From Siphonodentalium dalli (Eukaryota > Mollusca > Scaphopoda > Gadilida > Siphonodentaliidae), in assembly GCA_032622095.1 (NCBI GenBank), contig CP136069.1:8200036-8264035 (forward strand): DNA of 64,000 nt. The letters are read 5' to 3'. Position numbers and translations under genes: made by a program. The notes under the pieces were generated by a model. That model saw only the letters and a list, made by a program, of their open reading frames with translations, searched no databases and was not told where the DNA came from. Below, piece by piece: positions 3,919 to 59,830 of the stretch. How positions within the stretch are numbered: the stretch's first letter is position 1; each line of letters begins with the position of its first letter.

Positions 3919-4507
3919 TTAACCCTTTCAGTGCTAGGTCCAATTTTTGTATCAACCCATATACCCTGTGCCAATGCATTCTCTTATATATGCGAGTCGA
4001 CCATAGGTCGCCCTGCATATATAAGAGAATGCATTGGCCTAACAATGTTTAATCATTTGTTATTATTTTTTACAATTTTAATAATTTTTTTCTTATATTC
4101 TTTAACAATTTTATAATTTCACCCATACAGAGCCCCAGACAAACATGAGCAGACGACACTCAGTACACATGCTTCTATATATGTGTGGGGCTCCCTGTAG
4201 GGTTATTAACACTCTGGATGTTTTTTTTATTTTATGTCCTAAAAATTGTTAAAGAATGTAAGAAAATTTAATATAAAAAAAAGTTAAAAAATTGTTAGGC
4301 CAATGCATTCTCTTATATATGCGAGGCGACCTATGGTCGACTCGCATATATAAGAGAATGCATTGGCACAGGGTATTACTCTATATATTTTTTTTCTTCC
4401 AAAATCTGTGTACGCTGTGGTCATTACATTGTTTGTTGAACTTATTATCTGAACATTTTCAACAGGATAACTACTCAATAGTTAGTGTTTAGTGTAAAAA
4501 GGGTTAA
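3919..4507. mobile_element. B element, long form with two hairpins and an internal G module
   Basis: Left TTAA then CCCTTTCAGTGCTAGG. Hairpin module 1 is at about 3970-4038, a G module at 4122-4205, hairpin module 2 at about 4299-4367. A weak right end (AGTGTAAAAAGGGTTAA) closes at 4507. The order terminus-hairpin-G-hairpin recurs at 29465 and 33554 under other termini. Confidence 0.65.
4122..4205 (+). mobile_element. G module (miniature TTAA-type unit) inside B
   Basis: CCCATACAGAGCCCCAGAC at the left, GTGTGGGGCTCCCTGTAGGG at the right. The left TTAA is missing here; free copies elsewhere have TTAA at one or both ends. Confidence 0.6.
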
Positions 4508-4774
4508 CCCTTTTAGTGCCAGGGGGCGATCTCATCGGCCCTAATTTATGGTCTGTATATGTCTTATATATGTCGTCTGCTCATGTTTGTCTGGGGCTCT
4601 GTATGGGTGAAATTATAAAATTGTTAAAGGTTGCAAGAAAAAATTCTTAAAATTGTAAAAAATTGTTAGGCCAATGCATTCTCTTATATATGTCGACTCG
4701 CATATATAAGAGAATGCATTGGCACAGGGTGTATGGGTCGATACAAAAATCGGACCTGGCACTCAAAGGGTTAA
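4504..4774. mobile_element. B element with a partly collapsed hairpin
   Basis: TTAA at 4504-4507 is shared with the previous element's right end, and TTAA closes at 4771-4774. The ends are CCCTTTTAGTGCCAGG and CCTGGCACTCAAAGGG. Half of a G module lies inside (4573-4612). The hairpin at 4672-4724 has lost the GAGGCGACCTATGG part of its apex. Confidence 0.85.
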
Positions 4775-5122: not shown

Positions 5123-5343
5123 AGACATATTATCCTGTGCCAGTGCATTCTCTTATATATGCATAGGGAGCCTTGTATATTTAAGAGAATGCACTGACTT
5201 ACAAGATCAAGGAAAAATATTGTTAGGCCAATGCATTTTCTTATATATGCGAGGCGCCCTATGGGCGACTCGCATATATAAGAAAATGCATTGGCACAGG
5301 GTTTTCGCAAAAATTCAGGAAGCTCCAGTCATGAAAAGGTTAA
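5123..5343. mobile_element. H element, partial
   Basis: Two hairpins. The first (about 5134-5197) is of H type (GCCAGTGC outer stem) with a truncated arm. The second (about 5226-5295) has the variant apex stem CGCCC/GGGCG. The right end AGCTCCAGTCATGAAAAGG plus TTAA is a weak H terminus. Confidence 0.65.
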
Positions 5344-6759: not shown

Positions 6760-7372
6760 TCTATATCACATGAAACCCCTATAATATCATTGAAAAATCC
6801 ATTAGAGTAATAGCTGCATTGCACCAAGAAAATTACAGCGCAGATTAATACTATTCAGAAAAGCCGCACTTGACATCAATACCAGACATTGCAAAATGAT
6901 TGCTTTCTTGATTAAAGTTCAATTATTGTCCAACTTAGTTACACTATCGAAAATAGGCTCAAAAACAAAGAGGGGGACTATATATTTGGCACAAGGCAGA
7001 GCACGCAATATGGTCGTTTATGGTTGTGAAACGTCTCGGCTAACGCGTGCATGTATACATTTTACATCCATTTTTCAGCTTCTTTTAACCCTTTGAGTGC
7101 CAGGGGCCAATCTCATCGGCCCTAAACCTACTAAATAAGTCTGTTAAAGAATATAAGAATAAATTATTAAAATTGTAAAAAATTGTAATTTTTTTTTTTT
7201 AGGCCAATGCATTCTCTTATATATGCCAGGCGACCTATGGTGAGTATGGTCGACTCGCATATATAAGAGAATGCATTGGCACAGGGTATATGGGTTGATA
7301 CAAAAATCGACCTGGCACTCAAAGGGTTAAAGATTTTGATTTGTTGAAAAGGCATAAAGCTCTAGTATTTTT
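6760..7372 (+). repeat. Dispersed segment, copy 1 (paralogue of 36715-37240)
   Basis: Matches the later segment along its length ('catgaaacccctataatatcatt', 'agacattgcaaaatgattgctt', 'gattttgatttgttgaaaaggc'). This copy carries a B insertion at 7085-7330. The other copy lacks it and so gives the empty site. Confidence 0.8.
7085..7330. mobile_element. B element with complete ends and an expanded hairpin loop
   Basis: TTAA at both ends; CCCTTTGAGTGCCAGG and CCTGGCACTCAAAGGG. The hairpin loop has extra bases (ctatggtgagtatggtc instead of ctatggtc). Comparison with the empty paralogous site at about 37198-37204 confirms insertion at TTAA. Confidence 0.92.
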
Positions 7373-8133: not shown

Positions 8134-8599
8134 TTAACCCTTTACCCAACAAAACGGCCAAAAACGCCCAAATAAAGCTTCAACAGCCTAAAATATCTTC
8201 GGTCTATCTCAACACCATACAAATGTAGATATCATTGGAACCGGTTCATTGACCACATTGTGATGGTTACAGTTATGCCCTGTGCCAATGCATTCTCTTA
8301 TATATGCGAGTCGACCATACTAGTAGGTCGCCTCGCATATATAAGAGAATGCATTGGCCTAAAAAAAATCTTTTTTAAACACTTTTTACCATTTTTCTTA
8401 CATTCTTTAACAATTTTATATATTTTTTCTTACATTTTTTAACAATTTTTATAATATTTTTCTACATTCTTTGACAATTTTATCATTTTTAATATGTGTT
8501 AAGCCAATGCATTCTCTTATATATGCGAGGCGACCTATGGTCGACTCGCATATATAAGAGAATGCATTGGCACAGGGCCGTTCTTCTGTGAACAGTTAA
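8134..8599 (+). mobile_element. A element with aberrant right end
   Basis: Left TTAA and TIR are intact. Hairpin 1 carries a loop insertion (CATACTAGTAGG). The spacer is longer than usual because an AT-rich segment is repeated. After hairpin 2 the canonical ending TGTTGGGTAAAGGG is missing and is replaced by TTCTGTGAACAG before TTAA, which resembles the left flank (TTTGTACAG). Confidence 0.8.
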
Positions 8600-8816
8600 A
8601 GTGACGTTGATCTTGAATATATACAAGAAAACCATAGTCAGAAATGGTAACCCCCCCAAGATCATATTATTAGGCATATACATGTATATAAATTATAATA
8701 TAAAATATATTGGTTTCATGAATGCACCACCTCAGAATTCCGTTAAAATAACTAATCCTTCAAATTATTAAAACGTCTATGGCTAATGACTGCAGGTTTC
8801 TCCTTCACCACACCAC

Positions 8817-8968
8817 CAAGCCTTGAAATAGTGTGTGTGTCATTTGCAGAATGAGGTCTCTAGAGCGTGAATTTAGTGATGCTACCCCGCATAGCGGGCT
8901 AGAATCACCAAATTCACCCTCTGGGGAACTCATTCTGCAACTGACAGACATACTATAAATCAGGCTTG
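8817..8968. mobile_element. D element, one-palindrome form
   Basis: CAAGCCTTGAAATAGTG start and CAGGCTTG end around a single D palindrome whose apex stem is CCCGC/GCGGG with ATA loop. Flanks CACACCAC / CACACCAG are an 8-bp duplication with one mismatch. Confidence 0.8.
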
Positions 8969-8999
8969 CACACCAGAAAGCCTCTAAATGCAGACCAAA

Positions 9000-9315
9000 A
9001 ATCTACTAATCGGATTAAACACACCCTATAGTTCACAATACAACCTTTATTAATCTACTAATCGGATATAAACACACCCTATAGTTCACAATACAACCTT
9101 TATTAATCTACTAATCGGATATAAACACACCCTATAGTTCACAATACAACCTTTATTAACCTACTAATCGGATATAAACACACCCTATAGTTCACAATAC
9201 AACCTTTATTAAACTACTAATCGGATATAAACACACCCTATAGTTCACAATACAACCTTTATTAATCTACTAATCGGATTAAATACACTCCCTATAGTTC
9301 ACAATACAACCTTTA
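9000..9315 (+). repeat. Satellite with a 52-54 bp unit, six copies
   Basis: 'atctactaatcggat...acacaccctatagttcacaatacaacctttatta' repeats head to tail with few differences. Confidence 0.92.
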
Positions 9316-9699
9316 TTCTACATTCCAACTGAGACATACGTCATCAGCAAAGTTAGCTGTTATATTATGCATTTTGTTCCCGCAATATAATCTTCAAGAG
9401 TGGCCCAGCCATTGTTCATATCTAAACATCGAAAGCAATTAACACAGTCATTATAGTTACATACTGCAACAATGAGACATCTGCGAAGATACATCACGAA
9501 AACCCGAAATGTCTTGCGAGATATCCCCGAAATGTCTTGCGAGATATCCCCATCGCTATAGCTCTAGTGTACAATTTCCTAAAATAACTCACATCGCATG
9601 AAACCGGAAATGTGTTTCCTGCCTGATATCCCCATTGCCCCATTGGCATGGCCAGATCAGCGTAGCAGGAAACGCCCATAGTATAGGACGTAACTAGTC
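9316..9699. other. Interval without a gene
   Basis: Only a 23-bp direct repeat (gaaatgtcttgcgagatatcc) near 9506-9551 was noticed. Confidence 0.6.
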
Positions 9700-9766
9700 T
9701 GCAAATAGTGTGTCTGTCAGTTGCAGAATGAGGTCACCAGAGGGTGAATTTAATGACACTATTCCT
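9700..9766 (+). mobile_element. D element fragment (left end)
   Basis: AATAGTGTGTCTGTCAGTTG and the first arm of a D palindrome, then truncation. Confidence 0.75.
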
Positions 9767-9927
9767 GCCTGGGCATTTAAAATATTATTCAATACATTGT
9801 AAATACCACAATAATTTAATAAAACTAAGGGAAATTATTTCTGAACTTGTCAAAATTAGCAGATCATCGGACTCAGAGGACCACAGTGGAATTGTTGTTT
9901 ATGATGACTCCGGTTTCATGTCCGGTT

Positions 9928-10133
9928 TTAACCCTTTACCCAACAAACCGGCCAAAACCGGCCAAATAAAGCTTCAACAGCCTAAAATATCTTCGGTCTG
10001 TCTCAATAGAACCATACAAATATGGATATCATTGGAACCGGCTCCTTGACCACATTGTGATAGTTACAGTTATGCCCTGTGCCAATGTATTCTCTTATAT
10101 ATGCGAGTCGACCATAGGTCGCCTCGCATATAT
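9928..10133 (+). mobile_element. A element, left half (split by N)
   Basis: TTAA, CCCTTTACCCAACA, the CCGG-rich subterminal segment and most of hairpin 1, ending at GCCTCGCATATAT. The element resumes at 18740 with ATATAAGAGAATGCATTGGC. Removing 10134-18739 and one ATAT restores a normal hairpin. Confidence 0.92.
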
Positions 10134-10867
10134 GAGTCATTATCAATTTTGGCGCATATTCTTGTCCTTTCACACTGGCGTCTTTCAGACAAGATATATG
10201 CTGGCAAATTATAATTTTATATATGGCCCGCAATGCGTTCTATAAAATACACACCGAATACATGTCGTGTAGCGGGATATTAACCCCCTACCCGTTAGTT
10301 TTATAGCTGAATTTCCACTAAAACTCGTGTCCCAATTTCAAAATATCGAGTTCGCTCGTCTGTCTATGGACATTATTCACAATAATTATGAAAACTGTCA
10401 TGCGTAGTTGAATAATGGTCATTACTCTAAATGAAAACTAACTGTAGACTACCAATGTCCGAGATTTCCACATATTTTTTGCTCGTTACATCTTGTCCCT
10501 CAACTCGATGTATCTACTGTAACGAAGATGCATACTAGCAAAATAATAGGACCTCCCTATCAGTGTCAATGACGTCAATTCGTTTTATAAGAGTGAGAGC
10601 ACATGGCATGATCGAAAGTGGACGCCGATTTGGAATACGAAGATACAGCAGAGGAAAAATTAGCATCAGGTAGGTGCACCCATAGCCGTATATTTAAAAA
10701 GCGTCTGAAATGTAACGCAAATTTAATCGATATGACCAGGGAGCTCAGTATCGCTAATTAATTTTCATAGATATGTTTGTGCGTCATTTCGATTGCCACA
10801 TTATCCCCCCGCTGAAGGGAGAATTCATTGAGATATTTCGTGTTTGATAGTCAATACATATCTCCTG

Positions 10868-11840
10868 TAACGGTCTACTCCTGTTACGAAGAAAATCATT
10901 ACAGGAAATACCAGTTTTGTTACTGGAGATAGAAATATCACCTTGAGATTAGTCTATCTATAATATGTGTCAAAATATTATGTGGATTTATTATGTAAAC
11001 TGTCAGGTGACTCATTAGAATTTTATTTAGCCAAACAGTTATGTGTTTAAGATAAACCATTTGCTGGGACTTTGTCACAATGTTAAATCATGTTACGGGA
11101 GATACTATAATTGTTACGGGAGAAAGCAGTTTTGACCAACAACGTAGCAATTTTGAATAAAGTCGACTTTTAGCCCCTTTGTCGCATTCCTGCTATCATT
11201 GTGATGTGAAAAACATCATATAATAATAAACGCGACCTCTTCTATATTTGAGTCGCTTCAAATTGTGATTTTGTTACACGAAATACACTGCGAGTAACAC
11301 GATATACGACATGTGTTACATGAATTTTACTTTTGTAGTAATAGCAAGCAATCGTGTGTTATTTTGTTTGACGTTTATTTACTGTGTTTTGGTATGTTAT
11401 AATTACATGAGTAGCTTGAAATTATTTGAAAATACCGAAATTACATGCCAGTTATCTGCACAAATAACCAAATAGGCGTTACAGGAAATACGATTAGTTG
11501 TCATTATTTTAATTTCGGTGTAAGGGGAAAGGATTACCAAATGGTGTCAGTTTTAACTCACATACAAATATGTATGTGAGTGTACTATGGTGAGTAAGCA
11601 TCGATGCGTTCGTTATATAGTTCCTTTTAAATTCATGACCAGATCGCGTGGTCGTTACATTAAATACACAACACGCTACAGGAAAGACCAGAGTGTGTCT
11701 GAAGGGTTATTTTGGTGGGGTAATTCAAATTCGCTCGCCAAAATAGCAATAATAAAAGGGTCGAATTATTGGTATAATACTTTGTTTTGGTGAATTATAA
11801 TGGAAACCAAACTTGATTAGACGTTACACGATATATATGT
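10868..11840. repeat. Subterminal GTTAC-type motifs of N
   Basis: Short variants of GTTAC(A/G)(G/C)GA(A/G)ATA occur about a dozen times here, e.g. near 10901, 10918, 11093, 11113, 11272, 11297, 11480, 11673 and 11822. The complementary form (TCGTGTAAC and similar) occurs in the right subterminal part near 17462, 17807 and 17967. Inverted subterminal motifs are typical transposase-binding arrays; that role is inferred. Confidence 0.5.
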
Positions 11841-11973
11841 CAAGATGCCATTGATTTACAACTCGACAAATTCCGGAAGTCGCATATGTCCGTGTACATA
11901 TCGTTTTTGAACAAGCACGCTTAATACATATACGGTATTCGTAAATTAGTAACGTCGTCCTGATTGCTTTCAG

Positions 11974-12972
11974 ATATGGCTATGTCAAATGCTGAGAGAC
12001 AGAGGAAATTCAGAGCGAATATGGATAAGGATCCTGAACGGCGACGCTCTTATTTGAACAAACAGAAAGCAAAGTATAAAGAAGACAAGAGATGGACTGT
12101 CATCCGGTGCATAACCCCTTGTGGCATACCGACTAGTGTGGGCATATCTATAACGTATGAGTGCTATACTCAGACCGATGGACCCAAAAATCAGCCTTTT
12201 CATATAAACAAAGATGAATAACTATAGAACAAAAAACCAAAAACAAAACAGTTGAATATGCCATTAAATGTCCTCATAGTGGTGAACAACCATACAAATT
12301 TTCATTGAGATCCGAGCGTTACTGTTCAAGTTATTACCTGAACAGTCATCGGATGGACCAAACAGCCAACATTTCCAGATACACAAAGATGAATAACTCT
12401 AGAATGGAAAATCCGAACAAAACGATGTAACCCTCTATTGAATGCCCTCATATTAGTGAACATCCAAACCAAATTTCATTGAGATCCCAGCACAACTGTT
12501 GAAGTTACGATATGAACAGACACCAGACGGACCAAAAGCCAAAATTTCCATATAAACAAAGATGAATAACTCTAGAATGGAAAATCCGAACAAAACGATG
12601 GAACCCACTATTTAATGTCCTCATATTAGTGAACATCCATACCTAATTTCATTGAGATCTGGGCACTACTGTTCAAGTTATGACATGAACAGACATCGGA
12701 CTGACGCACAGACGGACAGGTGCAAAACAGTATACCCCCATTTTTAAAAAAGGGGGTATAATAAGGAACTTGGAAAAAAGAAGTGCAAAAAAATATATGA
12801 CATCGCGAGAACTGACGAAAACAATGGAAAGAAAAACAGAGAAAACAAAGAGAAAAACTAAAGAAAATAAAGTAGATTATAGCATGTATACACCACCAGC
12901 TTCGCCACTGCAAAATCACGAAGAATTTCCGAGGCCCATCTAGACAGGAAAGAGAGAGAGCAGCAAGCAAAC
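11974..12972 (+). pseudogene. N protein, N-terminal exon, interrupted and frameshifted
   Basis: A polypyrimidine tract and TTTCAG at about 11964-11973 look like a splice acceptor. An upstream CAG/GTAGGT at 10667-10675 may be the matching donor of a noncoding first exon. The likely start gives MAMSNAERQRKFRANMDKD, an Arg/Lys-rich segment. After KYKEDK the frame is broken by a 673-bp repeat (12090-12762). Beyond it the reading resumes as ELGKKK, so removing the insert restores continuity. A 1-nt shift follows in an A-run near 12790, then a basic stretch and TPPASPL. From memory this resembles the N-terminus of uncharacterised, transposon-borne animal proteins; no search was done. Confidence 0.6.
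12090..12762 (-). mobile_element. U repeat inserted into the N exon
   Basis: AAG occurs on both sides (12087-12089 and 12763-12765). The insert holds three diverged ~110-120 bp units with AAAGATGAATAACTCTAGAA and 'cattgagatc', and ends in a small hairpin (TATACCCCC / GGGGGTATA). The same family in opposite orientation lies at 43090-43420 ('gagttattcatctttgtttatctgg'). Confidence 0.75.
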
Positions 12973-13186
12973 AAGAAAACCATAGTCAGAAATGGTAACG
13001 CCACCAAGATCGTATTATTAGCCATAAATATAAATAATAATACAATTATTCTATAAACTAGCTTTCAAATTTTATGCGGGAAATTTGCGTACTTCCATAT
13101 TTCAAGTTTTCCCGTTTCTCGTGGCATACATTACTTTCATCAAACTGTCTTCTTTATTACACAAGCTGATAGGCCCGACTTCACCC

Positions 13187-13745
13187 GGGCTGTTTCACAT
13201 CTGCTTTCCGGTGAAAGGTGCGATTTGACCTTCAATTGACTATTTCGAAAGTCAAGGTCAGGTCAGGGTCATGATTTGTCCAGTCCAAAACACCCCCACC
13301 CGTAGAAAACTACCCATAGGTATCAAATTTCGTCGAAATCCGTCCGTTTTACCCAACTTGACCTTTAATTAACAATTTTGAAGGTCAAGGTAAGGTCAGA
13401 GTCATGATTTGACCCGTCCAAAACACCCCCCCCCCCCCCGACAAAAGTACCCATAGGTATCAAATTTCGTCGAAATCTATCCGTTTTATCCGAGTTGACC
13501 TTTGATTGGCCATATTGAAGGTCAATGTCAGGCCGAGGTCACGATTTGACCCGTTCAAAACTCTCCTCGGACCAAAGTATCCCTAGGTATCAAATTTCGC
13601 CGAAATTTGTCCGTTTTACCCAAATTGACCTTGCATTGACAGTTTTAAAGGTCAAGGTCAGGTCGGGGTCACGATTTGACCCGTTCAAAACACTTCCCGG
13701 ACACAAATACCCATAGGTATCAAATTACGTTGAAATCTATGGAAA
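13187..13745 (+). repeat. Tandem repeat, ~120-bp unit, four to five copies
   Basis: Each unit reads roughly 'ttgaaggtcaaggtcaggtc.gggtca.gatttgacccgt.caaaac' then 'cccataggtatcaaatttcgtcgaaat'. A C-run lies at 13426-13439. Located inside N; no coding. Confidence 0.85.
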
Positions 13746-14094
13746 GCCGAGGAGGACATGTTGGTTGCTAATTGCTAGATATACGACGCGGTATTTTGAA
13801 GGTGTTTCAAACTAGGAGATAGAAGTATTCTGCCTTTCAAATGGTGATGAATTATAGTAGTTTATTCAAATTTTATGGCATAAATTGTTATTAAAACCGT
13901 ATATACTATAAAAAATTAATGACTCGAAAATTAAGTGGGCCTTTAAACAAAGTCACAATTGCATTTAGGCTCATCTCATACTCGTCCATTCAGCGATATT
14001 CTACTGCGCAGTTTGTTATAGCCTCCAGTATTTATTGAGCGTTATACCCCCAACTGTTATAATTCGCCTTTAGCAGGCGTACTCTTGCCTCAGA

Positions 14095-14960
14095 TTATTG
14101 AGATATTAGGTCACACATAATCACATTAAATCGCATCGTAACATAGCAATTGTGTGGGCTCCTTGGCGTGAATATGTAATGAGAAATAAGGTCATACGTA
14201 ATGACATTAAACTCAAGAAAACCCTCGAAAACAAAACAAAATCACATTTAATGTTTTACGTTATTTCCTTCATAAAAAGAATCTTCGTGATAATGAACCC
14301 TCTCGTTACTTTAGAATATAGAATTAACCTTAAAATAAAAAAAATCTTTGGAACACAGAACCTTCGGAATAACGAACCTTCGGATTGGTGAACCTTCGGA
14401 ATAGCGAACATTCAGAGAAATTTCGGAATAGTGGACCTTCGGGATAGTGAACCTTCGGAATAGAGCCATGCCCCCCAATATTCATATTATATGCCCAGAG
14501 TTCAAAGGTATGGACCCATAAAATTCTAAACTTGGCCCTTAAAATAATGAACTCCAAATTGGAGCACACACAGAACACCACTTAAGTCAACTGAACCTAT
14601 GTCATGTCCCAATGCGGGAGGGTCCATATATACCACAACATTCATAGTATATGCCAAGAATTCAAAGGTATGGGCCCACGTAATGACATAAAATCTCAAG
14701 AAAACCAGCGAAAACAAAACAAAATCACATTTAATGTTCTAAGTTAAGTTATTTCCTCCTGTATCTGTATCGGTGTGCGCGCATGATCAGTTCGGATGTG
14801 AGCGCACACTCCATATAAAGAATCTTTGTGAAAATGAACCCTCTCAAATTAGTCTCAATACTTTAAAATATAGAATTAACCTAAAAATAACAAAAACCTT
14901 CGGAATAGAGAACCTTCGGAATAGCGGATCTTCGGGATAGCAAACCTTCATAATAGAAGC
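14095..14960 (+). repeat. Duplicated block with AACCTTCGGAATAG mini-repeats
   Basis: The block 14199-14480 recurs at about 14680-14960: 'gaaaacaaaacaaaatcacatttaatgtt', then 'gaatagcgaaccttcgg' strings about 14 bp apart. The phrase 'ttcaaaggtatgg.ccca' also occurs twice (about 14500 and 14660). Confidence 0.8.
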
Positions 14961-15239
14961 ATGTCCCCACAATTACACCGGTGACGTAAACACATGTGCC
15001 AATCTTAGTTGTACTCTCGTAATTATCGGTACGATGAAACGGTGACGGAATCTGACGAGATTTGCCGAATGTACAATCACCCAGTGAATTATCGATCGAC
15101 CATGCGATACAAAAAAACCAAATGCAATAAACACCACACTACGGTGGCGTAATAATTCGCGAACGATCCAAATGTTATCGGGATAAAGTTCTGTATGAGA
15201 GTCCCAATATCATTATGCCTGTTATTAGAACTAGAAGGA

Positions 15240-16593
15240 ATGTTAAGAAAAATTTATTGGGTGTTTGTGGCAAGAAAGCGGGTCAGGGTGCGCAATCATG
15301 TAGAGAGGCAAATGCGATGTGTTAGATGGGAGTGTAGAGGAATCTGGGACGATTGCCAATGATGGTTTGAAAGTTGGGTCGGTGGGCAGACAGGTGGAGG
15401 GTGTTTTGACTAGGCGTGGTAGGCACGCAAGTCGAGGTGTGTGATCAGACAGAGAGGTCGGCGACGGGTTAGTTGGGAGTGGAGAGGAACCTGGGGCGAT
15501 TGTCGATGACGGTTTGAAAGTTGGGTGTTGTAGGGAGAAAGGTTGAGGGTGTTTTTACTAGGCGTGGTGGCAAGCAAGTCCATGTGTGCGATCAGACAGA
15601 GAGGTCGGCGACGGATTAGTTGGGAGTGGAGAGGAACCTGGGGCGATTGTCGATGACGGTTTGAAAGTTGGGTCTGTATGGAGAAAGGTTGAGGGTGTTT
15701 CGACTAGGCGTGGTATGAAAGCAAGTCGAGGTGCGCTCTCAGACAGAGAGGTTAGCGTCGGATTAGTTGGGATTGGAGAGGATTCTGAGTTGATTGAACA
15801 GAGTGAGCCAGATGTTGATGAATGTGATGGGGAGAAGCTTGTTGAGGGTTTAGACGGGAGGTGTCCGGATAATGTACTAGCGAGTGAACAGCAGAGTAAG
15901 ACAGTTGATGACAATGACACGAAGATGGAGATCGAGGGCGTGGACGACATGTGTCCAGAGATTGTACTAGAGAATGAACAGGGTAAGACATATGTTGATG
16001 AATGTGACATGGATATGGTGATCGAGGGTGTGAACGAGAGGTGTCAGGAGAAAGTATCGGAGAGTGAACAGCAGAGTAATACAGCCGATGAATGTGATGG
16101 AGAGAGGCAGGTTGAAGGTTCGGACAGGCTGTTTCAGGGGAAAGTACAGGATAGTGAACAGCAGAGTAAGTCAGTTGATGAATGTGAGTGAGAGAAACGG
16201 GTTGACAGTTTAGACGGGATGTGTCAGGAGAATGTACTGGAGAGTGAACAGCAGAGTAAGATAGTTGTTGATGAATGTGGAATGCATATGTTGATCGAGT
16301 GTGTGCATTCGATGTGTCCGGAGAGTGTAACCGAGAGCGAAGAGACAAGTAAGATAGTTGTTGATGAATGTGACGGGGAGAAGCACGTTGAGGGTTTAGA
16401 CGGGATGTGTCAGGTGAATGCATTGGAGAGTGAACAGCAGAGTACAGCTGGTGAATGTGATGGAGAGAAGCGGGTTGAAGGTTTAGACGGGATGTGTTAG
16501 GAGAAAGTACCGGATAGTGAACAGCAGAGTAAAACAGTTGCCAATGAATGTGATGGGGAGAAGCTGGTTGATGGTTCAGACAAGACGTACGTG
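15240..16593 (+). pseudogene. Acidic repeat-coding region of the N protein, decayed
   Basis: The base composition changes to G-rich. The first part (15250-15780) has about three copies of a ~150 bp unit translating as SDREVGDGLVGSGEEPGAIV. The second part has ~80-bp units translating as VDECDGEKLVEGLDGMCQ then ESEQQSK, about nine copies. Stops have arisen by point changes: near 16189 GATGGA became GAGTGA, and near 16498 CAG became TAG. No known domain is recognised. It is probably a lineage-specific acidic linker upstream of the 16594-16912 domain. Confidence 0.55.
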
Positions 16594-16912
16594 TGATGGT
16601 GTTTGGTTGAATGTGCCAAGTTCAGTTGAGTGTATTGATAAATATGGTATTGTTAAATACCAGCGGAACATATACCCTGGATATGTCCAGAATGTCTCGG
16701 GTGATGAGTTGCTTATAAAATGTATGAAGCGTATAGGTCCAAAGAAGGCAAATTGCTTTACATGGCCAAAACGCTGCACAGATATTTCGTGGTACTGTCA
16801 TAACAAGATTTTGGCAGTTATTCCTGAGCCAAAGATAATTACAGGGAGAGGTTCGTACTTTAAAGTGTGCATGCCAATATGTAATAAATTACAGAGTAAT
16901 ATCGGACATTAA
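16594..16912 (+). pseudogene. N protein, C-terminal domain fragment
   Basis: About 105 residues with an aromatic/Pro pattern: VWLNV, then VKYQRNIYPGYVQNV, then a Cys-Met-containing strand, then CFTWPKRCTDISWY, then ILAVIPEPK. A stop follows at 16910. The frame differs from the preceding acidic repeats, so a frameshift near 16585-16593 separates them. From memory the YPG...WP..D..WY...PEP pattern is the C-terminal domain of the same uncharacterised transposon protein family as the basic N-terminus at 11974. A homology search would settle this. Confidence 0.5.
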
Positions 16913-18712
16913 GAAAGGCTATTGGCTGAGTATGTAATTTCCCCGTAAATATTCCGTGGTTTGCAGTTGGAAATGTCAGCGGTATATTATACATATATCG
17001 TAACGTACATGTATGATATTAGTTGGAAAATATCCACACGTGTGGTTTAGTTATTTGTTTCCGTTAAACATATTTTAAATTACAATTTATGTTTTCTTGT
17101 TAATAGACGGGTTCAGTCACACGCATTTGTATAGTATTGTGCATAGTATTGATATAGTGGTGCATGATGAAGGGAATTTAAAGCCACCCGACTGCTGTCA
17201 CGAACGCAAGTGTAACGACAACATGATTAAATTTGCATCACTCAAAATAAAATATGTCTGCGGGTAAATCACACATGCTCATAACAGCCACATGGCGTTC
17301 ATAACTCGTTGAAACCTTCTTTATGTAATGAAGGTGGGGTAATACTCTTAATTACACTTCTTAGTTACATGTTATACATCGGATAGACTTACATCTAAAC
17401 TAATCTTAACCGAATAACCGTGCACGTAATCAGGTTAGTTTCATTCACCAGATCAATTCCTTCTATCTACACATACGTGTAACTGAACCTCGCTAGTATT
17501 ACTTAGGGATGAAGAAACTCTCCCATAACGCAATTAATATGCGATGAGTTGTAGTTGGCCCTCGATGGTAACTCACACATATCTGATATATGCATCTCTA
17601 CTAAATACTCCACTTGAAATATTTCCGTGTATCAGATGTGTGTACAGTTACGACGGAGGGGCAACGGAGCGCTCTAGAATCGCCAAAAACTTCATTCTAT
17701 GGCGAATACACCACTCCAGTTATATATTTTTCCTTCTTTTTTCTTTGGATAACGCATTTTGATTATCCCTTTTTGTTGAATAAAACAATAATAAAAATGT
17801 GTCTTTCGTGTAACATTAAGAGCCAACGGACAAGTTCTTTGGCCAGATAATGGTTATATATGGCAAAAACTCTTTAACAAAATTTAGTGAGACCCTGAAT
17901 ATATTAAACAAATCTTCCTTCATCAAAATGGAACTAGAAATGTCCAAATGTACATGTTATGTATATCGTGTAACACGCATGTCTTTACTGTAGCATATGA
18001 CATTTTAAACTACACGGTAATTTATGAAATAACATTGTACATCCTTTATTATGCACGTCAGACTGCGAAATTGTTATTTTTGTCGCGCTATACTCGAAAT
18101 ATGACATATTGGTATAGCTTAGTGGGGTTTCAACCTCCATGTGGTGCTCAAAATTGTATATCACGTAACGATGACCATCTATACTGTCACACAAATGTCC
18201 CCACTGTAACGCAGTGAATATTGAAATTTTAAAATGCTAAGTCATACAATTCCAAGGGAGTTTTTTTCAATTATCAGTGGTTTAGGCATATCGGATTCAC
18301 GGCATTAAACCAATACCCAATATGATACGAATATTCTCTCTTGAAGAACTCTTTCGTATCGGCAAAATGTAATTTTCGAAAAACAGTTAATTCTACACAT
18401 GGAAAAGACATGATTTAACATCATATAACCGGAAAAATCTGTTTTATTAGTTGTAAGATAACCCATTTTGACATGATCGAGTTACAACATGAAGTAGTTC
18501 TAATATTTGTTAATTGCAGCCATACAAAGTGTGTTTGTTACAGTATAGACATTATATATGTATAGCCAACATTGACAACCCAACCAAATACAAATCATAG
18601 GTGATTAAGCCTGCATTTTAGTGTTTTAATAACCCATAAGGTCTATTTATTCCAAACGATGACCAAATTACGTTTTCTGCCAACATATTTTTTTCAATTA
18701 TTACCAGACTGA
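16913..18712. other. Right subterminal region of N, no coding seen
   Basis: AT-rich, with scattered GTGTAAC-type motifs that mirror the left subterminal motifs. No exon recognised. Confidence 0.55.
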
Positions 18713-18739
18713 AATATGCGCCAAAATTGATAATGACTC

Positions 18740-18924
18740 ATATAAGAGAATGCATTGGCCTAAAAAAAATCTTTTTTTAACACTTTTTACCATTTTTTCT
18801 TACATTCTTTAACAATTTTATAATTTTTAATGTGTTAAGCCAATGCATTCTCTTATATATGCGAGGCGACCTATGGTCGACTCGCATATATAAGAGAATG
18901 CATTGGCACAGGGCCCTTCTGTTG
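18740..18924 (+). mobile_element. A element, right half (split by N), aberrant right end
   Basis: Rest of hairpin 1, spacer and hairpin 2 (about 18839-18907). The right TIR stops after CCCTTCTGTTG and runs into ACTCCGGTTTCATGTCTGG. That resembles the sequence immediately left of the element (9906-9928). Confidence 0.85.
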
Positions 18925-18963
18925 ACTCCGGTTTCATGTCTGGTTTCTGCCAAGAGTACAGTA

Positions 18964-19122
18964 ATGACCTCATTCTGCAAATGACAGACACACTACAGTA
19001 ATACTCTAAATAATCGACTCCTTAACCACAGCAGAATTATGGGTATTTTTTCAGGATTTAGTCGGAAATATGGTTTGTTGGCAAGTTGCCATTCACTGGA
19101 AAACTCTCAGTGAAAAGCCATT
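18964..19122. mobile_element. D right-end remnant followed by C left arm
   Basis: 'cattctgcaaatgacagacacacta' (18970-18994) is a D terminus. TACAGTAATACTC starts a C element at 18994 that is truncated after the turn. Confidence 0.8.
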
Positions 19123-19137
19123 ATGCTTAGTAAACAT

Positions 19138-19503
19138 TTAACCATTTACCCAACAGAACGGCCCTGTGCCAATGCATTCTCTTACATATGCGAGTCGACC
19201 ATAGGTCGCCTCACATATATAAGAGAATGCATTGGCTTAACACATATTAAAAATGATAAAATTGTCAAAGAATTGTCAAAGGCCAATGCATTCTCTTATA
19301 TATTCGAGGCGACCTATGGTCGACTCGCATATATAAGAGAATACATTGGCACAGGGCATAACTGTAACGATCACAATGTGGTCAATGAACCGGTTCCAAT
19401 GCTATCCATATTTGTATGGTGTTATTGAGACAGACCGAAGATATTTTAGGCTGTTGAAGCTTTATTTGGGCGTTTTTGGCCGTTTTGTTGGGTAAAGGGT
19501 TAA
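19138..19503 (-). mobile_element. A element, complete, inverted orientation
   Basis: TTAA at both ends, CCATTTACCCAACA left, TTGTTGGGTAAAGGG right. The CCGG-rich subterminal segment is on the right, defining minus orientation. Both hairpins are present. Confidence 0.9.
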
Positions 19504-19909
19504 AACATATTTTTGCGAAATATGTGTAATACTGGTTGTATATCGACTATAATCAAGATGGTTATTCACGTCGTTTTAGAAATACCAGCGCAGACATTAT
19601 TATATTTTTCAAAAACATATCTGTTCTTGGATGTTTCATACACAAACTGTTTTTTTTTCTCAAATTGCTCGGATTAGCCAAATTAACACAGCGAAAATGA
19701 CAACTTTAGAAAAAATAAAGGTACTTTTTCATAAAGGTATCAGTTTGCCCTACCCACATCATATCATCATAGCAATTCAGCAGGACCACCAGCATCATAG
19801 CGTATTAGCAGGACCACTTGACCAGAGGTGCTTCGGTGATTTTAATCTAAGCACTCTGTAGTCTGTACAATTAGAATGTGTGTAATTACAACAACAGTAC
19901 TATTACAGT

Positions 19910-20365
19910 CAAGTCTGAGTTTAGTGTGCCTGTCATTTCTAGAATGAGGTCCCCTGAGGGTGAATATAGTGACGCTATCCCACATAGTGGGCTGACATCA
20001 CTAAATTCACCCTCTGGGAACCTCATTCTGCTTGGGCCTCATCTGCTATGGGAGACATAAACTCAGATTGAAGTTTAGATGATGAATATTGTGATATACA
20101 CCCATTGGGAACCTCTATTATGCAACATGTCATCTGCCAATTTGTGGATAAAGAGAAACTAGACTAAAAAAGAAAAAGAATCTATGTGAAGTTTCTATAG
20201 AAATTTGATAATAAAGAAACTTTCCAAAGAAGAGGAGGTTTAAGCAGAATGAGGTCCCCAGAGGATGAATTTAGTGATGCTAGCCCGCTATGCGGGATAG
20301 CATCACTAAATTCACCCTCTGGGGACCTCATTCTGAAAATGACAGGCACACTAAACTCAGGCTTG
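19910..20365 (+). mobile_element. D element (subtype 1), complete
   Basis: CAAGTCTGAGTTTAGTGTG to CACACTAAACTCAGGCTTG. Palindrome 1 (19935-20030) has apex T-CCCAC-ATA-GTGGG-C. Palindrome 2 (20246-20335) has the inverted apex with CCCGC/GCGGG. The ~215 bp interior is shared by all long D copies and has no frame. Confidence 0.9.
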
Positions 20366-20770: not shown

Positions 20771-21033
20771 CAAGCCTTGAAATGGTGTGTCTGTCATTTG
20801 CAGAATGAGGTCCCCAGAGGGTGAATTTAGTGATGCTACCCCGCATAGCGGGCTAGTACACATGTATCACCAAATTCACCCTCTGGGAACCTCATTCTGC
20901 TGAGGTGTAAGCAGAATGAGGTCCCCAGAGGGTGAATTTGGTGATGCTAGCCCGCTATGTGGGGTAGCATCACTAAATTCACCCTCTGGGGGACCTCATT
21001 CTGCAAATGACAGACACCCTATTTCAAGGCTTG
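20771..21033. mobile_element. D element (subtype 2), compact, with 8-bp target duplication
   Basis: CAAGCCTTGAAATGGTGTG to CCTATTTCAAGGCTTG, flanked by GTACCCTT at 20763-20770 and 21034-21041. The two palindromes are separated by under 10 bp. An 8-bp duplication with CAAG ends suggests hAT. Confidence 0.92.
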
Positions 21034-22245: not shown

Positions 22246-22467
22246 TACAGTTTATATACCCTAAATAATCAAATCCTTAACCACAGCAGAATTATGGGTA
22301 ATTATTCAGGATTTAGTCGGAAATATGGCTTGTTGCCATTCATCGGAAAGCTCACACTGAGAGCTTTCTGATAAATGACAACAAGCCATATTTCCGACTA
22401 AATCCTGAAAAATTACCCATAATTCTGCTGAGGTTAAGGGATCAATTATTTAGGGCATTATACTGTA
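22246..22467. mobile_element. C foldback, diverged
   Basis: Left end damaged (TACAGTTTATATACCCTAAA). The arms and the right end (GGGCATTATACTGTA) are recognisable. Confidence 0.85.
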
Positions 22468-22481
22468 GGACCTATAACCTT

Positions 22482-23712
22482 TATATTGCTACATGTAGGC
22501 ATGTATGTCTATGTTAAATCCCAGGGCCAGTTAATGCTTGCCCCATATATTGCTACATGTAGGCATTGCATATTGTCCATGTTAAATCACAGGGCCGGCT
22601 ATTGATTGCACCATATATTGCTACATGTAGGCATTGCATATTGTCCATGTTAAATCACAGGGCCGGCTATTGATTGCACGATATATTGCTACATGTAGGC
22701 ATTGCATATTGTCCATGTTAAATCACAGGGCCGGTTATTGATTGCACCATATATTGCTTCATGTAGGCATTGCATATTGTCCATGTTAAATCACAGGGCC
22801 GGCTAATGCTTGCACCATATATTGCTTCATGTAGGCATTGCATATTGTCCATGTTAAATCACAGGGCCGGTTAATGGTTGCACCATATATTGCTACATGT
22901 AGGCATTGCATATTGTCTATGTTAAATCCCAGGGCCAGTTAATGGTTGCACCATATATTGCTACATGTAGGCATTGCATATTGTCTATGTTAAATCCCAG
23001 GGCCGGTTAATGCTTGCACCATATATTGCTACATGTAGGCATTGCATATTGTCCATGTTAAATCACAGGGCCGGTTAATGGTTGCACCATATATTGCTAC
23101 ATGTAGGCATTGCATATTGTCTATGTTAAATCCCAGGGCCGGTTAATGCTTGCACCATATATTGCTACATGTAGGCATTGCATATTGTCCATGTTAAATC
23201 CCAGGGCCGGCTAATGCTTGCACCATATATTGCTACATGTAGGCATTGCATATTGTCCATGTTAAATCCCAGGGCCGGTTAACCCTTTACCCAACAAACC
23301 GGCCAAAACCGGCCAAATAAAGCTTCAACAGCCTAAAATATCTTCGGTCTGTCTCAATAGAACCATACAAATATGGATATCATTGGAACCGGCTCCTTGA
23401 CCACATTGTGATAGTTACAGTTATGCCCTGTGCCAATGCATTCTCTTATATATGCGAGTCGACCATAGGTCGCCTCGCATATATAAGAGAATGCATTGGC
23501 CTAAAAAAAAACGTTTTTTAACACTTTTTACCATTTTTTCTTATATTCTTTAACAATTTTATAATTTTTAATGTATTAAGCCAATGCATTCTCTTATATA
23601 TGCGAGGCGACCTATGGTCGACTCGCATATATAAGAGAATGCATTGGCACAGGGCCCTTCTGTTGGGTAAAGGGTTAATGCTTGCACCATATATTGCTAC
23701 ATGTAGGCCTTA
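22482..23712 (+). repeat. Satellite with a 68-bp unit, about 12 copies, split by an A element
   Basis: Unit begins CCATATATTGCTACATGTAG, continues GCATTGCATATTGTC(C/T)ATG and ends with AGGGCCGG(T/C)TA(A/T)TG. The A element at 23279-23678 sits in a TTAA of one unit, and the array continues beyond it to about 23712. Confidence 0.95.
23279..23678 (+). mobile_element. A element inserted in the 68-bp satellite
   Basis: The unit motif GGCCGGTTAATGCTTGCACC is cut exactly at TTAA, which is present on both sides (23279-23282, 23675-23678). Neighbouring units provide the uninterrupted target. This fixes the element ends. Confidence 0.97.
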
Positions 23713-28657: not shown

Positions 28658-29027
28658 TTAACCCTTTACCCAACAGAACGGCCCTGTGCCAATGCATTCT
28701 CTTATATATGCGAGTCGACACATATTAAAAATGATAAAATTGTCAAAGAATGTAGAAAAATATTATAAAAATTGTTAAAAAATGTAAGAAAAAATTATAA
28801 AATTGTTAAAGAATGTAAGAAAAAATGGTAAAAAGTGTTAGGCCAATGCATTCTCTTATATATGAGAGGCGACCTATGGGCATAACTGTAACCATCACAA
28901 TGTGGTCAATGAACCGGTTCCAATGATATCCATATTTGTATGGTGTTATTGAGACAGACCGAAGATATTTTAGGCTGTTGAAGCTTTATTTGGGCGATTT
29001 TGGGCGTTTTATTGGGTAAATGGTTAA
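28658..29027 (-). mobile_element. A element, both hairpins reduced to one arm
   Basis: TTAA ends; left TIR intact, right TIR ATTGGGTAAATGG. Hairpin 1 stops after GCGAGTCGAC. Hairpin 2 keeps only its first arm and apex. It sits in the LINE relic. Confidence 0.88.
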
Positions 29028-31787: not shown

Positions 31788-32207
31788 TTTTAGTGTGTGT
31801 CATTTGCAGAATGAGGTCCCCAGAGTGTGAATTTAGTGACACTATCCCTCATAGCGGGCTAGCTCCACCAAATTCACCCTCTGGGGACCTCATTCTGCTT
31901 AGGCCTCATCTGTTATGGGAGACCTAGACTCAGATTGAAGTTCCCAAATGGTGAATATTGTGATGTACACCCAGTGGGAACATCGATTATGCAATGTGTC
32001 GTCTGCCAATTTGGGGACACAGAGAAACTAAACTAAAAAAGAAATAGAATCTTTGTGAAGAAGTTTCAATAGAAATTTTATAATAAATAAACTTTCCTGA
32101 GAAGATGAGGTCTAAGCAGAATGAAGTCCTCAAGAGGGATAGCGTCACTAAATTCACCCTCTGGGGACCTCATTCTGCAAATGACAGGCACACTATACTC
32201 AGCCTTG
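31788..32207 (+). mobile_element. D element (subtype 1), left end eroded
   Basis: TTTTAGTGTGTGTCATTTGC start, palindrome 1 with apex CCCTC/GCGGG, the standard interior, a half-deleted palindrome 2 (32120-32180) and right end ACTCAGCCTTG. Confidence 0.82.
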
Positions 32208-35581: not shown

Positions 35582-35968
35582 TTAACCCTTTAGTTTACCC
35601 AAAAGAACGGCCCTGTTCCAATGCATTCTCCATAGGTCGCCTCACATATATAAGAGAATGCATTGGCTTAACACATTAAAAATTATAAAATTGTTAAAGA
35701 ATGTATGAAAAAAATGGTAAAAAGTGTTAAAAAAAGATTTTTTTAGGCCAATGCATTCTCTTATATATGCGAGGCGACCTATGGTCGACTCGCATATATA
35801 AGAGAATTAATTGGCACAGGGCATAACTGTAACCATCACAATGTGGTCAATGAGCCGGTTCCAATGATATCCATATTTGTATGGTTTTATTGAGACAGAC
35901 CCAAGATAATTTAGGCTGTTGCAGCTTTATTTGGCCGGTTTTGGCCGCTTTGTTGGGTAAAGGGTTAA
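35582..35968 (-). mobile_element. A element with truncated first hairpin
   Basis: TTAA ends; the left TIR has an insertion (CCCTTTAGTTTACCC). Hairpin 1 lacks CTTATATATGCGAGTCGAC (GCATTCTCCATAGGTCG). Hairpin 2 is nearly complete. Confidence 0.88.
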
Positions 35969-36493: not shown

Positions 36494-36720
36494 TTCAGTA
36501 ATGCCCTAAATAATCAACTCCTTAACCACAGCATAATTATGGTTATTTTTTCGGGATTTATTCGGAAATATGGCTTGTTGCTATTCATCGGAAAGCTCTC
36601 AGTGAGAGCTTTCCGATGAATGGCAACAAGCCATATTTTCGACTAAATCCTGAAATGTTACCCATAATTCTGCTGTGGTTAAGGAGTCGTTTATTTAGAG
36701 CATTACTTTATGTCATATGA
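36494..36720. mobile_element. C foldback, complete, ends slightly mutated
   Basis: TTCAGTAATGCCC start, full arms, turn GAGAGCTTT at about 36600, end GAGCATTACTTTA. Confidence 0.88.
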
Positions 36721-37240
36721 AACCCCTATTATATCATTAAAAAAGTCATTACATACATTGATGGAAAGAGCTGTAAGAGAGCTTTCCGATGAATGGCAAC
36801 AAGCCATATTTCCGACTAAATCCTGAAAAGTTACCCATAATTCTGCTGTGGTTATGGAGTCGATTAATTAGGGCATTACTGTAGGCGCATGCTACATATC
36901 ACTTGGCTGCACACCAACAAAATGACTGCACTTTGTCTTTACATTGATTGAAGTGGATTAGTACTATTTCGAAAAGCCACGCATGACACCAGACAATGCA
37001 AAATGATTGCTTTGTTAATAATTAAAGTTAAATTATTGTTGAACTTCGTTGCACTGACGAAAATAGACACAAAAACACAAGAGGCAAATTGGGGACACTA
37101 TATTCTGTCTTCAGCAGCAAAGTGCGCAAATGTAATTTTCAGTTGTGAAGCGTCTCAGCCAACTCTGTAAAATGAAAATGTATGTATTTTCAGCTTCCTC
37201 TAAGGATTTTGATTTGTTAAAAAGCCGTAAAGCTCTAATT
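36721..37240 (+). repeat. Dispersed segment, copy 2 (empty site for B)
   Basis: Aligns with 6760-7372. At 37190-37212 it reads CAGCTTCCTCTAAGGATTTT, where copy 1 has TTAA plus the B element. Contains a C arm that copy 1 lacks. Confidence 0.8.
36775..36883. mobile_element. C foldback, right arm only
   Basis: GAGAGCTTTCCGATGAATGG to GGGCATTACTGTA, inside the dispersed segment copy 2. Confidence 0.82.
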
Positions 37241-41134: not shown

Positions 41135-41250
41135 ACATTAATCGACTCCTTAACCATAGCAGAATTATGGGTAACTTTTCAGGATTTAGATGGAAATATG
41201 GATTGTTGCTATTCATCGGAAAGCTCTCTTAGAGCTCTTTCCATCAATGT
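41135..41250. mobile_element. C foldback, left arm only, adjacent
   Basis: TTAATCGACTCCTTAACCAT through GGAAAGCTCTCTTAGAGCTC. Confidence 0.8.
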
Positions 41251-45401: not shown

Positions 45402-45530
45402 TCATGTGCCAGTGCATTCTCTTAAATATGCAAGTCTCCCATATGGAGCCTCGCATATATAAGAGAATTCACTGGCTTACAAGGTCAAGGTAAATGTTGT
45501 TAGGATGATGTATTCTCTTATATATGCGAT
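45402..45530. mobile_element. H element, fragment
   Basis: GTGCCAGTGCATTCTCTTAA hairpin with apex CTCCC-ATA-TGGAG, the 'cttacaaggtcaaggtaaatgttgttagg' spacer, then the first arm of hairpin 2. Confidence 0.75.
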
Positions 45531-45670: not shown

Positions 45671-45833
45671 CATTATACAATGTTGTGTACAGTATGTGTT
45701 TGTCTTGTATGAGTCCAGGTTCTGGTGGAAAGTCATATTGGACGAGACACGCAGTGTCGAGTCCAATATGACTTTTCACCACAACCTGGACGAGTACAAT
45801 AAAAACTCATACTGTACACAACATTGTATAATG
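45671..45833. repeat. V foldback, ~75-bp arms
   Basis: CATTATACAATGTTGTGTAC at the left mirrors GTACACAACATTGTATAATG at the right; inner AAGTCATATTGGAC / GTCCAATATGACTT. Confidence 0.9.
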
Positions 45834-48175: not shown

Positions 48176-48602
48176 GATGCCAGTGCATTCTCTTATATAT
48201 GCGAGTCTCCCATAGGGAGTCCTGCATATATATACAGTAATGCCTGAAGTATATGATCCTTTAACCACAGCAGAATTATGGTAAATTTTTCAGGATTTAG
48301 TCGGAAATATGGCTTGTTGCCATTCATCGGAAACCTCTCGGTGAGAGCTTTCTGATAAATGGCAGCAAACCATATTTCCGACTAAATCCTGAAAAATTAC
48401 CCATAATACTGCTGTGGTTTATGGGTTGATTATTTAGGACATTACTGTATAAGAGAATGCACTGGCTTACAAGTTCAAGGTAAATGTTGTTAGGCCAATG
48501 TGTTCTCTTATATTGCATAACAGGCCCTCTATATAAGAGAATGCACTGGCACAGGGTCTTTAATGCTGCACCAATGCAGCTCCCACCATGAAGGGGTTGA
48601 TA
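48176..48602. mobile_element. H element interrupted by C
   Basis: Hairpin 1 starts at 48178 (GCCAGTGCATTCTCTTATAT, apex CTCCC-ATA-GGGAG) and is cut at GCATATATA by a C element (48233-48449). It resumes TAAGAGAATGCACTGGC. Reduced hairpin 2 (48493-48552). Right end CTCCCACCATGAAGGGG. Confidence 0.88.
48233..48449. mobile_element. C foldback inserted into an H hairpin
   Basis: TACAGTAATGCC to GGACATTACTGTA, complete arms, standing in the TATA-rich arm of the hairpin. Confidence 0.93.
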
Positions 48603-51016: not shown

Positions 51017-51420
51017 TTTAGTGTGTCTGACATTTGCAGATTGAGGTCCCCAGAGGGTGAATTTAGCGACGCTATCCCGCACAGCTGGCTAGCATCACAA
51101 AATTCACCTTCTGGGGACCTCATTCTGCTTAGGCCTCATATTCTGGGAAGTATCTATAGTCTCAAACTAACATTGTTTTTAGTTACTTTTTCCCTTCTGT
51201 TGAATTTCCATATCCCCTAAATTGCAGAAGATTAATGGGTAAACATCACCAACTTCAACTGGGGAATTTCAATCTGATCCTAGGTCTCCCATAGCAATTG
51301 AGGGCAAAGCAGAATGAGGTCCCCATAGGGTGAATTTGGTGATGCTAGCCCACTGTGCGGGATAGCGTCACTAAATTCACCCTCTGGAGACCTCATTCTG
51401 CAAATGTCAGACACACTAAA
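51017..51420 (+). mobile_element. D element (subtype 2) at the centre of the composite
   Basis: TTTAGTGTGTCTGACATTTG to CAAATGTCAGACACACTAAA. Palindromes at 51040-51130 and 51308-51400, standard interior. The usual CAAGCC terminal bases are absent; the flanks are TTAA of the B elements. Confidence 0.82.
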
Positions 51421-52794: not shown

Positions 52795-53130
52795 ATAGTG
52801 TTTCTGTCATTTGCAGAATGAGATCCCCAGAGGGTGAATTTAGTGACGCTATCTCACATGGCATGAACCTCATTCTACTTAGGCCTCAACTACTTTGGGA
52901 GATCTAGGATCAGATTGAAGTTATCCAGTTGAAGTTGGTGATATGCACCCATTAGTCACCTCGATTATCAATTTATCTTCTGTAAATTAGAGGATATAGA
53001 AACTGAACAGAAGGGAAAAAGGAACTAAAAACAACATTTATTTGAGACTATAGATACTTCCCAGAATTTGAGGCCTAAGCAGAATGAGGTCTCCAGAGGG
53101 TGAATTTGGTGATGATAGCCCAATGTATTG
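52795..53130 (+). mobile_element. D element (subtype 2), right end lost
   Basis: CAAGCCTGGAAATAGTGTTT, damaged palindrome 1, full interior, start of palindrome 2 to GATAGCCCAATG. Confidence 0.82.
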
Positions 53131-53305: not shown

Positions 53306-53457
53306 TACAGTAATGCTCTAATTAATCGACCTCTTAACCAAAGCAGAATTATGGGTAACTTTTCAGGATTTAGTCGGAAATATTTCCGACTAAATCCTGA
53401 AAAGTTACCCATAATTCTGCTTTGGTTAAGAAGTCGATTACTTAGAGCATTACTGTA
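53306..53457. mobile_element. C foldback, 152-bp loopless palindrome
   Basis: TACAGTAATGCTC to GAGCATTACTGTA with the centre TTTAGTCGGAAATATTTCCG and no loop. Both arms share the ACCAAAGCAG / CTGCTTTGGT variant. Confidence 0.95.
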
Positions 53458-59300: not shown

Positions 59301-59679
59301 TTTGGGTCCATGGATAATTGGGCTTCAAACATGTCGAAATTGTTTTATAAAAAGGCGCTTGAGAGATTGGAAATTTCCAACAATTGAGAAAGTTTGAGGT
59401 GTCGGTTGTGAAATTCCAGCCTAAGATTTGGGAGTCTGAAGCCCGGTCGGGAGGGGACTTGTTGAGCTGGAGGAGGGGGGTGATCAGTAGTTTACAGTTG
59501 GTAATTTCAAAGTGGATTTTCAACAATCTACGTACGTGAATTCTCTCTAGCCACATATACTGTTTAGATCTACTTCTTTTAAAGTGATTATGAAAAGTTC
59601 TGACTGTTGTGGTCTCCAGAGTCCCAGTCTTATCAGTCATTGCAGTCTGGTGAGCAACCCCACAGTCATTGACTGTCTT

Positions 59680-59830
59680 GTTTAGTTTAGTTTCTCTTAT
59701 TCCCAAATTGGCAGATGACACATTGCATAATCAAGGTTCCCCAACTTCCCAATGGGTGTAGATCATAATATTCACCATTTGGAAACTTCAATCTGAGTCT
59801 ACATCTCCTATAGTATTATTATCATTTTAA
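59680..59830 (-). mobile_element. D interior fragment
   Basis: 'agtttctcttattcccaaattggcagatgacacattgcataatcaaggtt' to 'caatctgagtctacatctcctatag', without palindromes. Confidence 0.75.

Follow-up and report, generated by a model that had tools for sequence, protein, structure and literature searches.

Long subterminal hairpins in miniature mobile elements of a scaphopod genome: a similar tip in two families and deletions that gather at the loop

Bacterial IS200/IS605 elements carry subterminal hairpins and are not known to have terminal inverted repeats or target duplications, and in experimental systems palindromes undergo centre-break deletion, which ends at the symmetry centre and is explained by opening of the hairpin loop. 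Among eukaryotic elements, the available portion of one report describes piggyBac-like families (for example MER75, MER85 and Looper) with TTAA duplication, short terminal inverted repeats and inner inverted repeats at both ends, noting that such subterminal or inner repeats can in theory form hairpins (PMC12324416), and the excerpted text of another describes binding of palindromes as duplex by piggyBac and piggyBat transposases through two cysteine-rich domains (PMC11707139). In the accessible parts of two further papers, the Mre11 complex of yeast attacks hairpins with loops shorter than 9 nt (PMC8053094), and pithoviruses harbor abundant palindromic repeats, M1 and M2, with a putative TA duplication (PMC10664404). 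Here, we analyze a 64-kb stretch of the scaphopod mollusc Siphonodentalium dalli (assembly GCA_032622095.1, contig CP136069.1, positions 8,200,036 to 8,264,035; hereafter the window, numbered from its first base), which holds miniature inverted-repeat transposable elements (MITEs) of a TTAA-flanked group, A/B/H, and of a second family, D, as well as palindromes of a family E. Over the three hairpin families together, deletion ends gather at the hairpin centre, and the tip that A/B and D have in common is probably a coincidence within a generic hairpin layout.

In the end scan, TTAACCCTTT opens A and B elements and its inverted copy closes them, and each listed element bears the terminal inverted repeats CCCTTTACCCAACA and CCCTTTNAGTGCCAGG at its two ends, subject to the allowed mismatches. 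As proposed in an initial annotation of this DNA, A/B elements duplicate TTAA: among 19 with both ends identified, 18 are flanked by TTAA at each end and the remaining one by TTAA/TTAT, as found with end patterns that contain TTAA but tolerate mismatches. Short terminal inverted repeats starting with CCC, which we take to be a piggyBac-like trait, are likewise present in A/B/H. Judged from the TTAA target and the CCCTTT ends, a piggyBac-like family is the best explanation of the group, although no transposase gene was found in the window to prove it; the near-perfect, 69-nt hairpins with a mismatched tip set A/B apart from the described piggyBac-like elements. Two inverted apices occur in 11 of the 19 elements, one in six and no intact apex in two. 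In all 11 two-apex elements the left hairpin is in plus and the right in inverted orientation, and the same holds for seven of seven D pairs, of which 59906/60628 may be two elements; the initial annotation had the T-bearing arm facing the nearest end and the second hairpin as the inverted copy.

D elements begin CAAGCCT and their terminal inverted repeats start CAAGCC. The 8-bp duplication ascribed to them stands in two elements (GTACCCTT and CTCTGCAT, 8/8 bp each), whereas two others follow a 9-bp register (CTTTGGCTA, 9/9; TAYTCAAAA, 8/9) and the remaining two of the six checked, 19910-20365 and 59858-60730, have no visible duplication. On these grounds D is best explained as a separate class duplicating 8-9 bp, with the superfamily (hAT-type or other) only a candidate. 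Like hAT-type or other miniature elements duplicating 8-9 bp, D has terminal inverted repeats and, in two elements, 8-bp duplications; it differs in the 9-bp duplications of two elements, the lack of any in two and its two internal inverted hairpins, with no transposase to compare. The analogy to IS200/IS605 drawn in the initial annotation holds for the subterminal hairpins but is weak overall, since terminal inverted repeats are present in both A/B and D and most elements checked show target duplications (18/19 A/B and 4/6 D elements).

H had been presented as a further family with a stem sequence of its own and the same tip. We rejected it as an independent class: its consensus hairpin, written from its copies, is identical to A at 63 of 69 positions, three compensated pairs differ, and H arms are A arms plus compensated changes. 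Since H belongs within A, the number of independent families with this tip falls to two, and the annotated idea of one apex common to two classes survives in this narrower form, for A/B/H and D. In the 40 A/B/H copies that carry no more than 13 mismatches, positions changed on both arms still pair in 8/8 cases, compared with 2/3 in D.

Tips were located with an exact scan of the window for T-N5-ATA-N5'-C and with an arm-based hairpin list, blind to the tip, that holds 46 A/B/H and 17 D paired hairpins. The exact scan returned 37 sites, 34 in TTAA elements (A/B), three in D and none in H. The annotated A/B centre T-CGACC-ATA-GGTCG-C was recovered in 33 exact copies, the 34th reading T-CGCCC-ATA-GGGCG-C at 5254. 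Positions 267, 8134, 21200 and 61589, previously given as apex sites, mark where elements start; for 267, 21200 and 61589 the tip begins 180 bp further in, at 447, 21380 and 61769, and the first hairpin of the annotated interval, 8284-8358, has lost its triloop through a 6-nt insertion. The annotated H tip T-CTCCC-ATA-GGGAG-C (48178-48220) has no exact match in the window scan: the cited copy at 48179 reads GGGAG-T, that at 45408 reads ATA-TGGAG and that at 47246 reads TATCCC, while the 44980 copy is short of one base, 4941 is half H and half A, and 5139 lacks its left half. Exact D tips stand at 19978, 20283 and 60648. The claim that D shares the tip holds for most of its 17 paired hairpins, with ATA in 13 and a T/C mismatch in 14, but not for the four with other loops (ACA in two, ATT and ACG in one each) or the three with C/C; the 42112-type copy, for which an ATA loop had been given, reads ATT.

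Overall similarity between A and D hairpins does not exceed that of shuffled sequences: 2005 of 3000 comparisons with D shuffled and 1894 of 3000 with A shuffled score at least as high as the real pair, whose best local alignment, at 15, lies under the shuffled-hairpin mean of 16.7. With the loops aligned, 9 of the 15 tip nucleotides are the same in A and D, a level reached by 1496/20000 shuffled and 4528/200000 random hairpins, and the agreement is less unusual over wider spans around the loop. The expectation that loop and mismatch are better conserved than the flanking stem was not borne out among clean copies, as changes affect 1/120 loop versus 54/2000 arm positions in the 40 A/B/H copies (P 0.37) and 4/36 versus 57/888 in 12 D copies (P 0.29). 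A first count over 43 A/B/H copies had given 1/129 versus 104/2150 (Fisher 0.028) and was discarded, truncated copies having inflated the arm changes. A thermodynamic preference for ATA was also considered and set aside: a DNA energy model gives the best, the worst and the ATA triloops the same energy in each context, so that it cannot tell whether ATA is preferred, and in the same model pairing the T/C mismatch gains 3.6 to 4.3 kcal/mol.

Lesions were mapped by anchoring each family at the arm base and tracing it through the tip. Anchors stopped early in 18/104 cases for A/B/H, 9/40 for D and 24/35 for E, and 45 of these 51 broken ends were kept, four transposon insertions and two ends sharing another copy's junction being dropped; the deletion at 5139 and loop insertions were left out of the count. 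Relative to a null of simulated uniform cuts (200000 simulations), 20 of the 45 ends lie within 4 nt of the hairpin centre (5.9 expected) and 24 within 6.5 nt (9.6 expected) for A/B/H, D and E pooled; counted as events (n = 37), the figures are 19 against 5.8 and 22 against 9.2. The share of simulations reaching the pooled values is 0.0 as printed. At the 4-nt limit D has 6/9 ends (descriptive P 0.00013) and E 9/23, where the null gives 6.8% (descriptive P 1e-5). By eye, the A/B hairpins at 4670, 28842, 35667 and 43714 break within about one base of CCTATGG^; the automatic ends differ, since three of them lie beyond that point by as much as 3 nt and that of 4670 falls on the opposite side of the centre, the deletion there being bridged by a gap. 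Loop insertions are seen in two A/B hairpins, 7203-7280 and 8284-8358. Examples of broken hairpins are:

28842..28881, plus strand: A hairpin broken at its tip; junction CCTATGG^GCATAAC
35599..35667, minus strand: A hairpin broken at its tip; junction CCTATGG^AGAATGC
52815..52859, plus strand: broken D hairpin, junction CTCACAT^GGC within the loop

This pattern is consistent with extruded loops being opened and the ends then joined. It resembles known centre-break behavior, with the difference that here it is read from old mobile-element copies and not from experiment, and it appears to be a more solid new observation than the shared tip, which we regard as a lead and not as an established feature. 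That the hairpins extrude in the cell, as the initial annotation supposed, gains indirect support from the gathering of deletion ends at the loop over the three families together.

We lean, with a probability of roughly 55%, towards A/B/H and D being two MITE families whose tip likeness is at least partly due to chance and whose hairpins are subject to generic extrusion and loop opening. In both groups long, nearly perfect hairpins lie a short way in from the ends, and those of A/B may be greatly lengthened versions of the subterminal inner inverted repeats of piggyBac-like elements. The common tip would represent two cases of a generic layout, namely a triloop, a short GC-rich stem and a first mismatch at the base of that stem. 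A short hairpin could fold back and prime copying of its own arm to give a long palindrome, with the 5-bp seed and mismatched terminus as a possible fossil of fold-back priming at the tip. In the organism, the hairpins would extrude, and a generic hairpin nuclease of the Mre11 kind may open the loop whatever its sequence, which would leave small insertions in the loop and deletions with an end at the tip. Coincidence within this layout is likely the simplest reading of the A-D likeness, and the layout recurs without an ATA loop in a palindrome at 45682-45822, which has a GCA loop.

Several observations weigh against this account. ATA is found at only 4 of 109 other 5-bp triloop sites in the window, and with such rarity the joint agreement in loop, mismatch letters and mismatch position is less likely to arise by chance than the similarity test suggests; a rough probability product, estimated by hand, comes to ~1e-4 to 8e-4 for each pair of families, uncorrected for multiple looks. 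The generic layout does not account for the loop and mismatch letters that A and D have in common. E hairpins do not have the seed mismatch, and a fold-back origin is put forward as a suggestion. As for the lesions, the test and its limits of 4 and 6.5 nt were chosen after the pattern had been seen, so the P values are descriptive, and A/B/H alone is not significant (5/13 ends within 4 nt, P 0.23; 8/13 within 6.5 nt, P 0.08). Some D junctions have CCC microhomology and could reflect slippage, and the E half-hairpins could partly be the ends of longer elements.

The initial annotation had favored one factor, a nuclease, replication protein or host protein, reading an extruded tip of ATA, five pairs and T/C that both classes evolved in order to use it. 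Loop, mismatch letters, distance and orientation to the element end do coincide in two unrelated classes, ATA is scarce among the other local hairpins, and the change from the A to the H consensus keeps loop and mismatch while two apical pairs changed together. As far as a single window can show, the counter-evidence named in the initial annotation did not turn up either, most D copies having ATA and T/C and other local hairpins seldom having ATA. However, the arms are conserved no less than loop and mismatch among copies, D departs from the tip in both mismatch and loop, and the A-D likeness is borderline against shuffled hairpins. Moreover, E clusters lesions without ATA or the mismatch, so the tip sequence is probably not what matters; a common factor reading ATA and T/C is thus unsupported, and we rate it as improbable. 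A bolder version, in which two transposon classes converged on one extruded tip that is read as a structure by a protein of the host or borne by the transposase and aiding excision or copying, with the lesions as scars, is less probable still. Least probable of all is descent of a common core of about 29 nt, ATGC-(2 or 3)-TC-NNN-CATAG-NNN-GC-(2 or 3)-GCAT, handed from one family to the other: the best local A-D alignment spans it, outer ATGC/GCAT included, but that alignment scores below the shuffled mean, and no intermediate was seen in the window.

Palindromes are unstable in Escherichia coli clones and hard to sequence, which would suit the idea that cloning or assembly, and not events in the organism, produced the deletions at the tip. 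We consider this about as improbable as the common factor, as junction partners vary between copies and three A/B elements whose hairpins are broken, 4504-4774, 28658-29027 and 35582-35968, have kept TTAA on either side. Slightly better placed, though still unlikely, is a role of the hairpins purely as double-stranded dyads for transposase dimers, with the tip as the dyad centre and extrusion never needed for function. A hairpins do lie at unequal distances from the two ends (in 267-666, for example, the apices are at 452 and 599), subterminal inverted repeats are described for piggyBac-like elements in the available text of PMC12324416, and paired cysteine-rich domains recognise palindromes in piggyBat and piggyBac according to that of PMC11707139. 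Yet the arms of at least 33 bp exceed the 14 to 19 bp palindromes named in the latter, the lesions at the tip suggest that extrusion occurs, if only as a by-product, and such a role does not account for the same tip in D.

Should two transposon classes truly share a structural tip, eukaryotic cut-and-paste transposition would gain a step of folded-strand recognition, as in bacteria. On the ordinary reading, dozens of copies in three hairpin families, with breakpoints mappable to the base, form a natural record, and genome-wide such breakpoints could reveal the sites and the manner in which extruded hairpins are opened in a cell, and any influence of the loop sequence.

The individual A and H copies and the large insertion that splits one of them are as follows:

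8134..8599, plus strand: A element; left end TTAACCCTTTACCCAACA; usual right terminal repeat missing, TTAA at 8596, right limit approximate
8284..8358, plus strand: A hairpin with a 6-nt loop insertion, ATACTAGTA replacing ATA
8503..8571, minus strand: A hairpin, inverted copy, tip exact
9928..10136, plus strand: A element, left part; hairpin tip at 10108; broken by the 10137-18739 insertion
10137..18739, no strand assigned: 8.6-kb insertion in the arm of an A hairpin; its inverted ends, GAGTCATTATCAATTTTGGCGCATATT, are identical over 27 bp
18740..18920, plus strand: A element, right part after the insertion; hairpin 18839-18907; right limit approximate
19138..19503, minus strand: A element, TTAA on both sides; hairpins 19168-19236 (+) and 19282-19350 (-)
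23279..23678, plus strand: A element in the TTAA of a tandem-repeat unit, empty target in the neighbours
45408..45476, plus strand: hairpin of H type; tip TCTCCC-ATA-TGGAG-C, arm as in A except for compensated changes
48179..48466, plus strand: left arm and tip (GGGAG-T) of an H-type hairpin that is split by an E element

The 8.6-kb insertion apparently duplicated ATAT, judging from intact hairpins, and holds minisatellites and short frames near 11976 (MAMSNAERQRKF...) and 16600 without a Pfam match. A tandem array at 22461-23270, with a 68-bp unit containing TTAA, was the target of an A element: the element at 23279-23678 occupies the TTAA of one unit, and the adjoining units represent the empty target. 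Elsewhere, two B elements, one ending at 51016 and the other starting at 51421, flank a D element (51017-51420) with their outward-facing TTAA ends.

Three D elements illustrate the range of that family:

8817..8968, plus strand: D element with one hairpin and a C/C mismatch; flanks CACACCAC / CACACCAG, a 7/8 match read by eye
19910..20365, plus strand: D element; inverted hairpins 19941-20029 and 20245-20335, both with T/C and ATA; no target duplication visible
20771..21033, plus strand: D element; 8-bp duplication GTACCCTT; C/C mismatch in both hairpins

Inside two-hairpin D elements, a sequence of approximately TGGTGAATATTGTGATGTACACCCA, diverged from the hairpin arm of which it is a copy, recurs at 31949, 33032, 42215 and 53934.

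E is a full palindrome, flanked by TA on both sides in 6 of 10 listed end pairs. By description it resembles the pithovirus M1/M2 repeats, which, in the accessible part of PMC10664404, are those of viral genomes. Two palindromes served for comparison:

36535..36669, no strand assigned: E hairpin in the window, tip CTCTC-AGT-GAGAG, without mismatch
45682..45822, no strand assigned: unrelated palindrome, with a GCA triloop, a 5-bp apical stem and a 2-nt mismatch directly below

The E copies at 36763-36844 and 41161-41242 show the same altered tip and agree over the first ten bases of their flanks (ATCAATGTAT), which may point to an E progenitor of greater length. In the E copy at 53308-53455, both arms end at one point, giving a perfect palindrome centred on GGAAATATTTCC.

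No tRNA and no Rfam match was found in the window, and none of five reading frames tested in it has a Pfam match above the cut-off, no transposase being among these frames; the sole match below the cut-off is CUT_N (E 0.019) in frame 59257-59730. Exact-pattern scans found no copy of the A tip, A arm or D arm in viral contigs and none of the A arm in contigs of prokaryote genomes. Within the partial literature text available, three of four element strings are absent and the fourth occurs once, in a paper on adenovirus therapy; judged from titles and the openings of abstracts, the matches listed for MITEs, hairpins, palindromes, molluscs and bivalves do not describe these elements. The window has a GC content of 37.7% over its 64 kb by base counts, and much of it, as read, consists of miniature mobile elements and tandem repeats, among the latter a near-identical 53-bp repeat of several units at 9016-9332.

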